From positions 1-41,919 of the IMG/VR virus record IMGVR_UViG_3300034072_001485: a stretch of 41,919 nucleotides of DNA, one strand, 5' to 3'. The stretch is from a virus. A model generated the notes under the pieces. It made no database searches, was not told where the DNA came from, and saw only the letters and a program-made list of their open reading frames with translations. How positions within the stretch are numbered: the stretch's first letter is position 1; every line of letters begins with the position of its first letter. Both the position numbers and the translations under genes were made by a program. Positions 10,267-41,870 of the stretch are shown piece by piece.

Positions 10267-12723
10267 TTAGGCAGCGCGGGCGAGCCCGCAATTGAGAAGC
10301 AGGTTGCGATGGTTGTTGATTGCGGCTGCGATGGCCGCGTTACTGGCCGACCCATCCGTGGGCAGGTCACCACTAATCAGGTAGCGTCCGGTCGGCGCAG
10401 CCCCGTTAAAGGCCACCCCCGCCGCCGAAACCGACACCTTGGCCAGCAGGCCGTCATCAGCCAGCGTGATGCCTCCACCCATTGGGTGATGGATGACCAG
10501 GCTGCCGCCGGGATCGGCCTCGATTGTGCTAAATTGCTCGACACCGCCATAGCGTCCAGCCAGCGTTAGCTTGCGCGACCCGCTATCGCCGGTTTCATGA
10601 CGCGGGCTGACCATAACGTGGGTTTCGGTGACCGCGAACCGCGAATAGCCCAGATCGCCGTTGCGGATATCAAACCCGGCCGGCGAGCCCCAGACGATGG
10701 TGGCGAAGGGGTCAAGCTCGAACTTGGCGATGCGGGAGTTAACGCCGTTAAAGGCTTCGAAATAGAATGGCTGCGATCCGACCTCACCCGTTTCGACATT
10801 CGGATTCGCTCCCCGACCTACATAGGCAAAGGTTTCAGCGGCATAGTTGGCCGACTGCATGATTTTTTTCCACGGCACGCCGCGTGGAAACTGAGCCGTC
10901 GGCCAGACGCCCGGCTTATCGAATTGAAAAACCGCGAACTCAGACTTGGGCTGACACGTTGACCCACCGATAAACAGCGTGTTGCGATAGCTGCCCTCCG
11001 GCTGTGTGCCAAGGGCGTCTATGGGATGCACTTCAGTGTCATCCTCATGCATCAGCCCGAAGAATTCCGTGAATCCATAGCCGACGTTGCGCAGGTTGTT
11101 GCGATTGGTCCAGATGTTGTTGGTGGTCCACACCTGTATAGCGCGGCTGGGCTGACCAATCGGCGTCGGCCTGCCATTGGCCGACATCATCGACGCATTG
11201 AATCGCGCCACGGTGTTTTGCGCCTCCGACCCATTGCGCACAAGCGCCGTTGAGGCCGAATGCAGGATCACCTCGCCCTGAACGCGGTTGACCCCCGCCG
11301 GGATGTCGAGCGTATGGGCTGTACCATTGAAATTACCCGCCGTGCCCCCACCCGGATAGCAGGTCTTGGGCAACCCGCCGCTTTCATGCAGGGTACCAAC
11401 GACAACATCGTTGATCGTGCTCCATTCACTGAAATCGGCCTTGATGGACGGCCCTGTCGGCACAACAATGGGCGGGCCACCCGCGCGGAAATTCTCAATC
11501 TGCGCCGTACCCGTCAGCACTGGATTGTTGGCATTAGCCTTCGTCGCGGGATCAAAGTTTTTGGATGTCCAAAGCGTCGCCCATTCCCACGCGCGCGTCA
11601 GATAGTCGCCCGGTGCCCCTGACGCCCAACCGATCTTGGTGTCGGTGCGATCAAGAATATTGATCGCTATGGCTGTCGATATATAGAGCCCGCCCCGATG
11701 CGTGGTCGTGTTGATATTATAGTAACCGGTCGTCGGCGCATCGGTCATGCCTGACCCGTTGAAGTTTGAATACTTCAGAACGAGGTCGTTCAGGTTCTCG
11801 CCGCCCAGCGTCAGGCCCGGAAAGCTATATTGCGCGCCGATGGGCCAAAGACCGAATGCACCCGTGCCATCCTTAGCAGGTGCGTAGGATTCCAGCAGGG
11901 CCTTCGTAAACGCCGTCGTCGCGATCTGTCCGGTGTTTGTGCCTGCCGGTGCGGTCGGTGCGGTGGGTACACCCGTCAGGGCCGGGCTCAAAAGCGGCGC
12001 TTTTCCAGCGAGCAACGTGGTCACCGTAGCCGCAAAATTGGGGTCATTGCCCAGCGCGGCCGCCAGTTCATTTAGCGTGTCCAGTGCGCCGGGTGCGGAG
12101 GCAATAAGGGCCTCAAGTGCCGTTTTAACAAAGGCCGTCGTCGCAATCTGCGTCGTATTGGTCCCCGCCGCCGCCGTCGGAGCCGTCGGCGTGCCCGCCA
12201 AAATAGGGCTGAGCAGGGGCGCCTTGGTCGCCAGTGCCGCCGAAATGGTGGCCGAAAAATTCGGGTCATTGCCGATGGCGATGGCCAGCTTGTTCAGCGT
12301 GTCAAGCCCACCCGGAGCCGCATCAATCAGCGCAGAAATCGCCGCACGTACAAACGCCGTCGTCGAAATCTGCGTCGTGTTGGTCCCCGCCGCCGCCGTC
12401 GGAGCCGTTGGCACGCCGGTCAGGGCCGGGCTGAGCAGCGGGGCCTTGGTCGCCAGAAGGTTGGTTACCGTCGTCGCAAAATTCGGATCATTGCCCAGCG
12501 CGTCGGCCAACTCATTCAGAGTATTCAGCGCACCCGGTGCGGCGTCGATCAGGGCAGCAATCACCGCCTGCACAAAGGCCGTCGTTGCCAGGCGCGTAGA
12601 ATTTTCCGAAGGGTCAGGCGTCGGGGCCGTTGGCGCGCCCGTCAAATCCGCATCATGACGCGCCGCCGGTTCGAACGTCAACGCCGCTTCGATATGGTTT
12701 CGGTTTAGGGGGATACCGGCCAT
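10267..12723 (-). CDS. Long tail fibre with 74-residue repeats
   Basis: This 818-aa fibre has an N-terminal array in which G-x-PTAPT recurs at residues 29, 103, 177 and 251 (period 74 aa, 222 bp), each followed by an ALIDAAPG/TLNELA/ALGNDPNF block. This repeat type is common in phage tail fibres. The remaining ~540 residues form a varied, Gly/Asn-rich part likely to hold the receptor-binding region. It is read leftward, divergent from J, whereas the P2 fibre gene follows I on the same strand. The start lies 94 bp from the dyad centre at 12806. Confidence 0.9.
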   Translation of the reverse strand: MAGIPLNRNHIEAALTFEPAARHDADLTGAPTAPTPDPSENSTRLATTAFVQAVIAALIDAAPGALNTLNELADALGNDPNFATTVTNLLATKAPLLSPALTGVPTAPTAAAGTNTTQISTTAFVRAAISALIDAAPGGLDTLNKLAIAIGNDPNFSATISAALATKAPLLSPILAGTPTAPTAAAGTNTTQIATTAFVKTALEALIASAPGALDTLNELAAALGNDPNFAATVTTLLAGKAPLLSPALTGVPTAPTAPAGTNTGQIATTAFTKALLESYAPAKDGTGAFGLWPIGAQYSFPGLTLGGENLNDLVLKYSNFNGSGMTDAPTTGYYNINTTTHRGGLYISTAIAINILDRTDTKIGWASGAPGDYLTRAWEWATLWTSKNFDPATKANANNPVLTGTAQIENFRAGGPPIVVPTGPSIKADFSEWSTINDVVVGTLHESGGLPKTCYPGGGTAGNFNGTAHTLDIPAGVNRVQGEVILHSASTALVRNGSEAQNTVARFNASMMSANGRPTPIGQPSRAIQVWTTNNIWTNRNNLRNVGYGFTEFFGLMHEDDTEVHPIDALGTQPEGSYRNTLFIGGSTCQPKSEFAVFQFDKPGVWPTAQFPRGVPWKKIMQSANYAAETFAYVGRGANPNVETGEVGSQPFYFEAFNGVNSRIAKFELDPFATIVWGSPAGFDIRNGDLGYSRFAVTETHVMVSPRHETGDSGSRKLTLAGRYGGVEQFSTIEADPGGSLVIHHPMGGGITLADDGLLAKVSVSAAGVAFNGAAPTGRYLISGDLPTDGSASNAAIAAAINNHRNLLLNCGLARAA

Positions 12724-25924: not shown

Positions 25925-26137
25925 TCAATGCGGTTGATTGGCGATATCGACCACCTGAGCGCCACGCTCGCTTAAGGTCTCGCAGGCCTTAGCCGCGATA
26001 TACAGATGATCGGCCATGACCGGCGTCGTCTGTTCTGCCGACTTCGCCAGGTGCACCAGCAGGCGGTAAAGCTGCGCCGCCGTCACATGGATATCCCTGC
26101 CCGCATTGTTCAGGTCCATCCGATCTACGCTATGCAT
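25925..26137 (-). CDS. Small SOS-linked protein, possible antirepressor
   Basis: A 70-aa unknown soluble protein, helical by composition (AAQLYRLLVHLAKSAEQ, YIAAKACETLSE). ATG 26137 is chosen because GGGG lies 9 nt upstream; the longer frame would start inside the LexA box. A promoter TTGCGA-N17-CATATG (26207-26179, minus) carries an alphaproteobacterial LexA box over its -10 and start. In phage 186 the LexA-controlled gene tum encodes an antirepressor that triggers induction. The role here is inferred from that parallel and from the repressor's lack of autocleavage residues; no sequence similarity to Tum is claimed. Confidence 0.6.
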   Translation of the reverse strand: MHSVDRMDLNNAGRDIHVTAAQLYRLLVHLAKSAEQTTPVMADHLYIAAKACETLSERGAQVVDIANQPH

Positions 26138-26164
26138 ACGCTTAATCCCCTCTCGCTCAAATGA

Positions 26165-26207
26165 GAACATATGCGGAACATATGAACGGGCAGAACGCGA
26201 ATCGCAA
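26165..26207 (-). promoter_or_regulatory. Leftward promoter with LexA box
   Basis: GAAC-ATATGCG-GAAC (26165-26179) fits the alphaproteobacterial LexA consensus GTTC-N7-GTTC read on the minus strand. It covers the -10 (CATATG, 26179-26184) and the expected start of transcription near 26172 of a promoter with -35 TTGCGA (26202-26207) at 17-bp spacing. Two more GAAC tetrads follow at 26184 and 26193. Confidence 0.7.
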
Positions 26208-26413
26208 GGGGTTTTATTCCTGACTTGTGGAATATAATCCTAAGCGCGCCGCGCTGTTGCCGGTAAGTCATACCCGATGCGCGCGCCGATAATTGAGGCA
26301 AACAACCGCCACGACATACCGAATTTATGAACGGCCCCGGCTGGTGTCAGCGCTTGCAAAAAGCGCGCAAATCGTGAAGATTTACGCGCATAAAATTGTA
26401 TGTATTTAGATAC
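26208..26413. other. Gap between the SOS-linked gene and the small-gene operon
   Basis: About 200 bp, moderately AT-rich, with no gene recognised. It probably contains the end of the leftward operon that finishes at 26414, but no clear terminator hairpin is seen. Confidence 0.35.
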
Positions 26414-27544: not shown

Positions 27545-27909
27545 CAGGCCTGCCCTCCCCGGTTCTTGAGTGACTCAGAAAGCAGCGCAGCGCCGTCTAC
27601 CGGTTTTTCGCCTCGTTCGACGCAACACGCTTCGCATTGGCAGACGTGGCCAGACGCCTTTTTATAGGCTCTGTAACCCGCTTCGAGTGCGGACCGCATG
27701 CCCATTTTGATAATCGGCGATAACACCCCGCCGCCGCGCATCGTCGAATGATGCGATATCGACCAGAAGCCGTGGAAGATGAAGCCGCCTTCGGCATCCG
27801 CTTCAACCGCATCCCTGAGCATGTTGTTGACCGCATCGACCACGTCTTCGGGGACATTGGCCGGGATTTCAATGACGCGCTTAACCGGCGCGGGATTGAG
27901 GCCCTCCAT
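27544..27909 (-). CDS. Unknown protein with Cys cluster
   Basis: A 121-aa protein. An N-terminal helical part (PEDVVDAVNNMLRDAVEAD), a central FIFHGFWSISHHS segment, and a late HVCQCEACC cluster that could hold metal. No family recognised. ATG 27909 overlaps the upstream TetR-like stop. Confidence 0.7.
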   Translation of the reverse strand: MEGLNPAPVKRVIEIPANVPEDVVDAVNNMLRDAVEADAEGGFIFHGFWSISHHSTMRGGGVLSPIIKMGMRSALEAGYRAYKKASGHVCQCEACCVERGEKPVDGAALLSESLKNRGGQA

Positions 27910-28232
27910 CACGCGGCCTCCGACTGGGCTTCGGTGCGCAGGATGTTGACCGGGTCATGACCTTTGAGCGTCAGGTACTGCCACAGGATGCGGCCCTGTT
28001 CCGCCGTCACCGGCGGGTGGCCGAAGATTTCGGCGTACAGCGCATCCTTGGTTTTCCAGAAGGTGAAGAACGCGCCGGTCGTATATCCGGCATCGCCCGC
28101 GATATCGCGGATCGTGGTGGCGACATAGCCGCGGCGTTGAAAGTGGCGCTTAGCCGTTTCCAGCAGATCGCGGCGCGTCTTCTGCTTTTTGGTGGCGCGC
28201 GGCCCAAGGCCGATAGAGGTGATGGTTTGCAA
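27909..28232 (-). CDS. TetR-like HTH protein without ligand domain
   Basis: A 107-aa protein whose residues 18-66 form a TetR N-terminal HTH (RRDLLETAKRHFQRRGYVAT, then TIRDIAGDAGYTTGAFF and the closing FWKTKDALYAEIF). Only ~40 residues follow, so the usual C-terminal ligand and dimer domain (about 120 aa) is missing. The start is uncertain; TTG 28232 is preferred because GGGAG lies 8 nt upstream, while GTG 28274 has no ribosome site. A perfect palindrome (28243-28262) overlaps its ribosome site, as expected of an autoregulator. It heads the chain of six overlapping small genes. Confidence 0.75.
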   Translation of the reverse strand: MQTITSIGLGPRATKKQKTRRDLLETAKRHFQRRGYVATTIRDIAGDAGYTTGAFFTFWKTKDALYAEIFGHPPVTAEQGRILWQYLTLKGHDPVNILRTEAQSEAA

Positions 28233-28242
28233 GGTGTAATCT

Positions 28243-28262
28243 CCCGTAACAGTGGTTACGGG
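28243..28262. promoter_or_regulatory. Perfect palindrome, probable operator of the TetR-like gene
   Basis: CCCGTAAC-AGTG-GTTACGGG has perfect 8-bp arms. It lies between the promoter at 28301 and the TTG start at 28232, covering the upstream half of the ribosome site. Size and place fit a TetR operator; an mRNA hairpin that masks the ribosome site is an alternative. Confidence 0.6.
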
Positions 28263-28276
28263 GTCAGAAATCACCG

Positions 28277-28331
28277 TTTTGGTATATTCGTCAAGTTTAA
28301 ATTATACCAGTATGCCATTTTTTATACCGTT
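28277..28331 (-). promoter_or_regulatory. Leftward promoter with repressor-type boxes
   Basis: An extended -10 (TGG-TATAAT on the minus strand; hexamer at 28301-28306) points at the TetR-like operon. Three TATACC/GGTATA boxes (28277-28288, 28300-28310, 28318-28331) surround it and resemble those upstream of the repressor gene, so the phage repressor probably controls this promoter. Confidence 0.55.
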
Positions 28332-28968
28332 ATGCCTCGACCCTCAGCAGAATCGGGTACACCCCTTCCTGATCCATGAGGGGGATGTATTCGCGCTTTT
28401 CAACGAAGACCGACAGGCCGTCTTCGCTGCGGCCCTCGTAACGGTAGCACTCGATATGTGAGGCGGAGGTGCGGGTATAGATGCGCACGATATAGCCACC
28501 GCCGCGCATCTTGATCACAACCGGCTGGTTGCGTTTCGGGGGGCGTCCAAGGCTATAGACCACCACCTGACCCGTTTCAAACACCGGGGCGACGTCTTCG
28601 TTGACGATCTGCATGACGCGGGCGTTCTGATCGAAAAGCGATTGCAGATCAACGCTAAGACCAGAGGTGGCCGGGGCGGAAAACCCAAGCGAAGCAGTCC
28701 GCGCAGGCGCTTTTGAAGGCGCGTCGAACATCGGTTCACCGGCTTCGACCGCCTCGGCTTCGGCCAGCAGATCCTCGCGCCGGAAGCCCAGGGCCTCGGC
28801 CAGTTGCGCCTGAGTATCTTCTTTTAAGATGACGGCGCGCTCACCTTTTTCGTAACGCGCCCAGGTGGCCTGAGTGGTGCCGAGATTATCGGAGGCCTCA
28901 TTCTGGTTCATGTCGGCCTTTTTGCGCAGCCGATAGAGTGCCCGCCCTAAAACCTTCTGCCTGTCCAT
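28330..28968 (-). CDS. Prophage repressor, XRE HTH with degenerate S24 domain
   Basis: The 212-aa lysogeny repressor has an N-terminal XRE HTH (about 5-45, MNQNEASDNLGTTQATWARY) and a C-terminal LexA/CI-type fold (about 115-212). The position equivalent to the catalytic Ser in D-S-M-x-P reads E-D-V-A-P (Asp125), and the catalytic Lys position reads Arg162 (YIVRIYT). An Ala-Gly pair (76-77) remains in the linker, but RecA-stimulated self-cleavage looks impossible. ATG 28968 is preferred (AGAGGT just upstream); the longer frame lacks the family start. It is read leftward, away from the early rightward operon. Confidence 0.85.
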   Translation of the reverse strand: MDRQKVLGRALYRLRKKADMNQNEASDNLGTTQATWARYEKGERAVILKEDTQAQLAEALGFRREDLLAEAEAVEAGEPMFDAPSKAPARTASLGFSAPATSGLSVDLQSLFDQNARVMQIVNEDVAPVFETGQVVVYSLGRPPKRNQPVVIKMRGGGYIVRIYTRTSASHIECYRYEGRSEDGLSVFVEKREYIPLMDQEGVYPILLRVEA

Positions 28969-29020: not shown

Positions 29021-29104
29021 GTATGGTATATCGCCGGAATGTTCACTTTTCATAAACCATTTCCGTTGACATTTATACCAAATCAGACGCGGTTTATACC
29101 AAAT
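29021..29104. promoter_or_regulatory. Repressor operator region with paired TTTATACCAAAT repeats
   Basis: TTTATACCAAAT occurs at 29072-29083 and 29093-29104, 21 bp apart (two helical turns), with a related GGTATA box at 29025-29030. Read on the minus strand, each repeat contains TGG-TATAAA, an extended -10, so operators and leftward repressor promoters overlap. On the plus strand TTGACA (29066-29071) may be part of the rightward early promoter, though no well-spaced -10 is seen. Confidence 0.6.

Positions 29105-40217: not shown

Positions 40218-40221
<4 letters not shown>
39697..40221 (+). CDS. Unknown AT-rich gene before the integrase
   Basis: A 174-aa protein with no family recognised. It has a Trp/Tyr-rich N-terminus, a hydrophobic helical middle (FFSFVLDDLHSLIFD, IRHLSLLITEWLG) and a C-terminal soluble part. 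It is visibly AT-richer than all neighbouring early genes, yet is joined to both by overlapping start and stop codons (ATGA before, GTGA after). The pattern fits a swapped-in accessory gene; a role in superinfection or anti-phage defence is possible but not shown. Confidence 0.75.

Positions 40222-41870
<1,649 letters not shown>

Follow-up and report, generated by a model that had tools for sequence, protein, structure and literature searches.

A LexA-type box precedes a small gene for a predicted helical hairpin in a P2-like phage whose repressor lacks the self-cleavage dyad

Results and discussion

The 70-aa gene and its promoter

The window, i.e. the whole stretch of 41,919 nucleotides analysed here (IMG/VR record IMGVR_UViG_3300034072_001485), includes an open reading frame of 70 codons on the minus strand at positions 25925–26137, with its ATG at 26137. 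An alternative in-frame ATG at 26170 would give a product of 81 aa. Since that codon lies within the LexA-type box described below and upstream of the Shine-Dalgarno sequence GAGAGGGG (minus strand, 26147–26154), the 70-aa form is likelier. The original prediction, made from the letters of the sequence, assigned the product to no known family, and searches of Pfam, PHROGs and NCBIfam indeed gave no match above the cut-off. AlphaFold2 predicts a helical hairpin with helices at residues 2–34 and 39–67 (pLDDT 93). A fold search with this hairpin returned nothing at E ≤ 0.001, the top matches being ferritin-like hairpins and Rop.

The promoter proposed for this gene, TTGCGA-N17-CATATG, was found on the minus strand, with the -35 hexamer TTGCGA at 26207–26202 and the -10 hexamer CATATG at 26184–26179. 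The segment 26179–26207 is missing from the output of a general promoter scan because its match to the consensus is weak. The predicted GAAC-N7-GAAC site is present at 26165–26179, where a pattern search of the window gave GAACATATGCGGAAC as the plus-strand reading; on the minus strand, toward the gene, it reads GTTC-CGCATAT-GTTC. Its assignment to the alphaproteobacterial LexA consensus agrees with a survey of 35 genomes of alphaproteobacteria, 29 of which, all six Sphingomonadales hosts included, have a strict GTTC-N7-GTTC ahead of lexA; the site is also kept in a related phage (see below). The box was also said to cover both the -10 hexamer and the start of the promoter. It spans the predicted transcription start of the 70-aa gene as claimed, and the -10 part of the statement was slightly overstated, the two elements having one base in common.

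A weight matrix derived from the GTTC-N7-GTTC boxes ahead of alphaproteobacterial lexA genes ranked 26165–26179 above all other positions of the window, with a score of 14.7 versus 8.3 for the runner-up. The bare pattern occurs twice in the window against 1.07 expected, and a site scoring at least 14.7 is contained in 27 of 300 random windows (9%) of the same composition. The box by itself is thus not rare and can be called suggestive, so that the weight of the case rests on comparative evidence. Overall, control of the 70-aa gene by LexA is considered highly probable. With a site like that of the host lexA genes over its promoter, the gene would, as far as its sequence goes, belong to the alphaproteobacterial SOS regulon; the relatives of the phage point to an alphaproteobacterial host. 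The second GTTC-N7-GTTC, at 1685–1699, lies 22 bp upstream of an adenine methyltransferase gene. Its matrix score is low (7.8), and it was rejected as a LexA site, being probably a chance occurrence.

The repressor and its surroundings

The repressor gene is located on the minus strand at 28330–28968, and its product consists of a helix-turn-helix (HTH) and an S24-like C-terminal domain. Alignment to S24 repressors placed Asp at the position of the catalytic Ser and Val at that of the catalytic Lys, which bears out the prediction that the residues required for cleavage are absent. In the repressor of the related phage, Ser is replaced by Ala and Lys by Thr, as judged by hhalign and pairwise alignment. 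Both repressors align to S24 repressors in hhalign profile comparison (E 3e-6), and the fold relation is therefore retained. Lacking the Ser/Lys dyad, the window repressor would by its sequence fall outside the cleavable S24 class (LexA/CI-type).

Downstream of the repressor gene and on the same strand, 27909–28274 encodes a 121-aa protein with a TetR_N DNA-binding domain and little else, which is kept in the related phage (57%). The leftward repressor operon ends at a terminator-like intrinsic hairpin on the minus strand (26363–26389), although chance alone would yield about one such site over the 800 bases scanned. This hairpin lies between the operon and the 70-aa gene. By sequence, the small gene would be placed under direct LexA control and outside the repressor operon, an arrangement typical of LexA-controlled antirepressors. 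Two copies of TTTATACCAAAT with starts 21 bp apart were read by eye at 29072–29104 and are probably the repressor operators; in the same reading by eye, TTTATACCAAAT was not seen at the 70-aa promoter. Among relatives of the repressor in genomes of the class, the two best sit among host genes on reading of their context and were dropped. At the right end of the window, a large recombinase gene (40218–41870), with plasmid matches annotated 'recombinase family protein', ends beside a tRNA-Met gene, a possible attachment site.

Conservation in a related phage

Two viral scans by protein family identified a sole relative of the 70-aa gene, in contig IMGVR_UViG_3300023194_000057 (referred to as L002), and a DNA pattern search with the conserved leader returned just the same contig. 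The family was absent from the GTDB candidates of one contig profile scan, gave no match in phage and plasmid records, and was found in none of 385 class genomes, a set holding no positive control.

The 70-aa protein is 82% identical between the window and L002, and the repressor 38%. Promoter, box and Shine-Dalgarno sequence are all conserved. The hexamers of L002 are TTGCAA and TAAATG, giving the common forms TTGCRA and YAWATG with the 17-nt spacer kept; ATGTTCCGYATATGTTCTCATTTRAGCGAGAGGGG is shared, and the Shine-Dalgarno sequence has the same letters. The DNA farther upstream of the promoter aligns poorly, the flanks having diverged. The L002 box (L002:5962–5976) has a matrix score of 15.2, the best in that contig, followed by 5.3 for the next site. 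A strong terminator directly 3' of the 70-aa-type gene indicates that the L002 box serves this single gene.

L002 further encodes an antirepressor with the P22_AR_N domain (PF10547). The start of its gene is overlapped by another gene, whose 68-aa product is distantly paralogous to the 70-aa protein (31% identity; L002:4839–5887 for the paralogue/antirepressor region). No strict LexA box was found upstream of these two genes.

LexA-type boxes and dyad-less repressors in P2-like phages

A set of 80 P2-like phage loci was collected through relatives of gene D. The repressors found in it fall into two kinds, S24 repressors with the Ser/Lys dyad (18 loci) and repressors without it. The former have a GDSM- or GNSM-type serine motif in 17 of the 18 loci, L017 showing GEAM only. 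A strict box no more than 3.5 kb from the repressor gene was present in 14/14 dyad-less phages, the window and L002 counted, versus 2/18 phages with the dyad (Fisher p = 5e-7, uncorrected for phylogeny). The counts are phylogenetically non-independent, each group consisting of related phages. In addition, the dyad-less seed repressors had originally been noticed beside boxes, which is a selection bias. In a search free of this seed bias, every locus was scanned with a profile built from the C-terminal domain of dyad-less repressors, and the matches in the gene D set were all in box-bearing phages. Both kinds are illustrated by a pair of prophages that share an IMG genome identifier, L010 having the dyad and no strict box and L029 a box and no dyad.

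No repressor was assigned in 49 gene D loci, many of which carry the short repressors of other P2-like phages. Near these short repressors CTGT-N8-ACAG was not found, and GTTC-N7-GTTC was found in just two loci. Loci of this type were taken as beta- or gammaproteobacterial by assumption and excluded from the Fisher test; their inclusion would weaken the association.

A second small-protein family in Sphingomonadales prophages

In 13 gene D loci, the box precedes an ORF of 96 aa with invariant cysteines (CxxC). Pfam and PHROGs yielded sub-threshold matches only for this family. Comparison of the 96-aa and 70-aa proteins by hhalign revealed no similarity (probability 0.5%), and a common origin of the two was therefore rejected as unsupported. 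The AlphaFold2 prediction for the 96-aa protein is a less certain helical hairpin (mean pLDDT 70).

Using protein similarity alone, 61 loci of the 96-aa family were gathered, some of the viral ones duplicating the discovery contigs; the genomic loci number 13 and are nearly all in named Sphingomonadales. A strict box lies ~30–55 bp upstream of the gene in 56 of the 61 loci, as compared with 12 of 3679 background windows, and 60/61 loci adjoin a repressor of the dyad-less type. The initial guess that the box is tied to a non-cleavable repressor thus holds across related phages and extends to a second, unrelated small-protein family.

Repressors beside the 96-aa genes have a constant C-terminal domain and an exchanged DNA-binding domain, of which there are at least four kinds; 58 repressor pairs share >70% identity in the C-terminal part and <25% in the N-terminal part. 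The 96-aa gene usually overlaps the repressor gene at its 3' end, in antisense orientation, by ~230 bp (L081:11784–12074 and 11845–12405; most of L085–L145), so that SOS transcription would oppose the repressor message. A conserved CTTTCCTAC element, sometimes AGGAAATTTCCT, was observed 25–35 bp upstream of the box in loci L085–L145 and is perhaps a repressor operator at the 96-aa promoter.

Possible role of the 70-aa protein

Boxes go with dyad-less repressors in both the 70-aa and the 96-aa families, which suggests that a LexA-controlled small gene accompanies the loss of self-cleavage in at least two unrelated families. A trans-acting SOS-induction switch that replaces self-cleavage of the repressor is the role favoured here for the 70-aa gene, with a probability slightly above even. 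What can be read directly from the DNA comprises the LexA-type site and its conservation, the promoter geometry, the missing dyad, and the way in which boxes accompany dyad-less repressors. In a lysogen, host LexA bound at 26165–26179 would block the 70-aa promoter, and the phage repressor (28330–28968), having lost the Ser/Lys dyad, would be unable to cleave itself. Following DNA damage, RecA would promote self-cleavage of LexA, and the 70-aa gene would be expressed. The hairpin protein would then inactivate the repressor, most simply by binding to it, and the lytic operon would open. That the 70-aa protein is an antirepressor of the Tum/Gifsy type appears marginally the better bet; its distant paralogue in L002, the gene for which overlaps the beginning of one for a P22-type antirepressor, points in this direction.

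The strongest counter-argument is the conservation of the 70-aa protein (82%), which exceeds that of its supposed target repressor (38%) and counts against a co-evolving cognate antirepressor. This difference is what a conserved host target would predict. The main alternative is a LexA-controlled gene with a host-directed product, for instance one that inhibits cell division as Kil, Gp0.4 and Hdi do or one that modulates RecA or LexA; it would ready the cell for phage growth while the repressor is freed otherwise. The predicted two-helix hairpin is reminiscent of Kil, Gp0.4 and Hdi, which are U-shaped and inhibit FtsZ (PMC11897509). However, helical hairpins are very common, and the structural search gave no significant match. 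Moreover, the box and the small gene track dyad-less phages, with the 96-aa family beside such repressors in nearly every locus, an association needless for a host-directed protein. A host target is thus regarded as rather unlikely, though the most serious of the competing explanations.

It is improbable that the gene is LexA-controlled and required for induction but acts indirectly, for instance through the stability of the repressor or by aiding another phage regulator such as the 121-aa TetR-like protein. A second phage regulator of unassigned role is indeed encoded at 27909–28274 and retained in L002; however, it is tied to the 70-aa gene only by their joint presence in both phages. A similarly low probability is given to the box having arisen by chance or serving a different regulator as operator, which would leave the 70-aa gene outside SOS control. 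Chance is favoured by the frequency of the bare pattern, expected once per window, and of equally good sites in random windows, but it sits poorly with the retention of the box at the same promoter position in L002 despite the diverged flanks, and with the same placement ahead of the unrelated 96-aa gene in most of its loci. As for another regulator, the palindrome that most readily suggests itself instead is CATATG, and it is not kept in L002.

More generally, but with somewhat less than even confidence, P2-like phages of alphaproteobacteria may have compensated for lost repressor self-cleavage at least twice, by LexA-controlled repressor-inactivating genes for unrelated helical-hairpin proteins. 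The Sphingomonadales version would combine a 96-aa gene antisense to the repressor 3' end in most loci with a repressor whose C-terminal domain is retained and whose DNA-binding domain is exchanged. If this is true, the combination of a dyad-less repressor and a LexA box before a nearby small gene would serve as a rule to flag SOS-inducible prophages that seem non-inducible, two new protein families would become antirepressor candidates, and the phages would clearly exemplify how unrelated proteins can arrive at the same regulatory solution.

Comparison with known systems

Induction via LexA-controlled antirepressors is known for enterobacterial phages (PMC3121763). A limited literature search found no report of it for alphaproteobacterial prophages. 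The kind of system is known; as for its proteins and its phage-host group, both appear to be new within the searchable papers. The lack of the dyad in the predicted cognate repressor is shared with the LexA-controlled antirepressor class represented by Tum, GfoA/GftA and AntC.

Tum of coliphage 186 is a protein of 146 aa, the second half of which is DinI-like (PMC3121763). As with Tum, the gene of the 70-aa protein is small, very probably under LexA control and carried by a P2-like phage, and its product is expected to disable a non-self-cleaving repressor. However, the fold predicted for the 70-aa protein is a helical hairpin and nothing more, and with 70 aa versus ~146 and no DinI or Tum match in the profile databases Pfam, PHROGs and NCBIfam the protein does not belong to the Tum family by sequence. 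GfoA and GftA of the Gifsy phages of Salmonella are small LexA-controlled antirepressors, whose genes lie outside the immunity region and whose targets are non-cleavable repressors (PMC3121763). They are the closest to the 70-aa system in logic and size, but differ in phage group, host class and type of LexA box and show no sequence relation by family-database search. AntC of phage N15, also named among the LexA-controlled antirepressors (PMC3121763), is likened by description only; it shares LexA control and comes from another phage type.

Kil, Gp0.4, Hdi and Icd of P1 are likewise small phage proteins, and the first three are two-helix hairpins; however, LexA control is described for none of them in PMC11897509, and the predicted fold of Icd differs.

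In L002, a P22-type antirepressor (P22_AR_N, PF10547) directly follows the distant paralogue of the 70-aa protein. The PF10547 domain was not found in the 70-aa protein, which is therefore not a P22_AR_N protein. An immunity operon of the Icd/C4 type was considered for the L002 antirepressor and rejected owing to the differing fold of Icd and the lack of an Rfam match for the operon leader. This leader (L002:4685–4845) folds unusually well (z -4.3) and is possibly a regulatory RNA.
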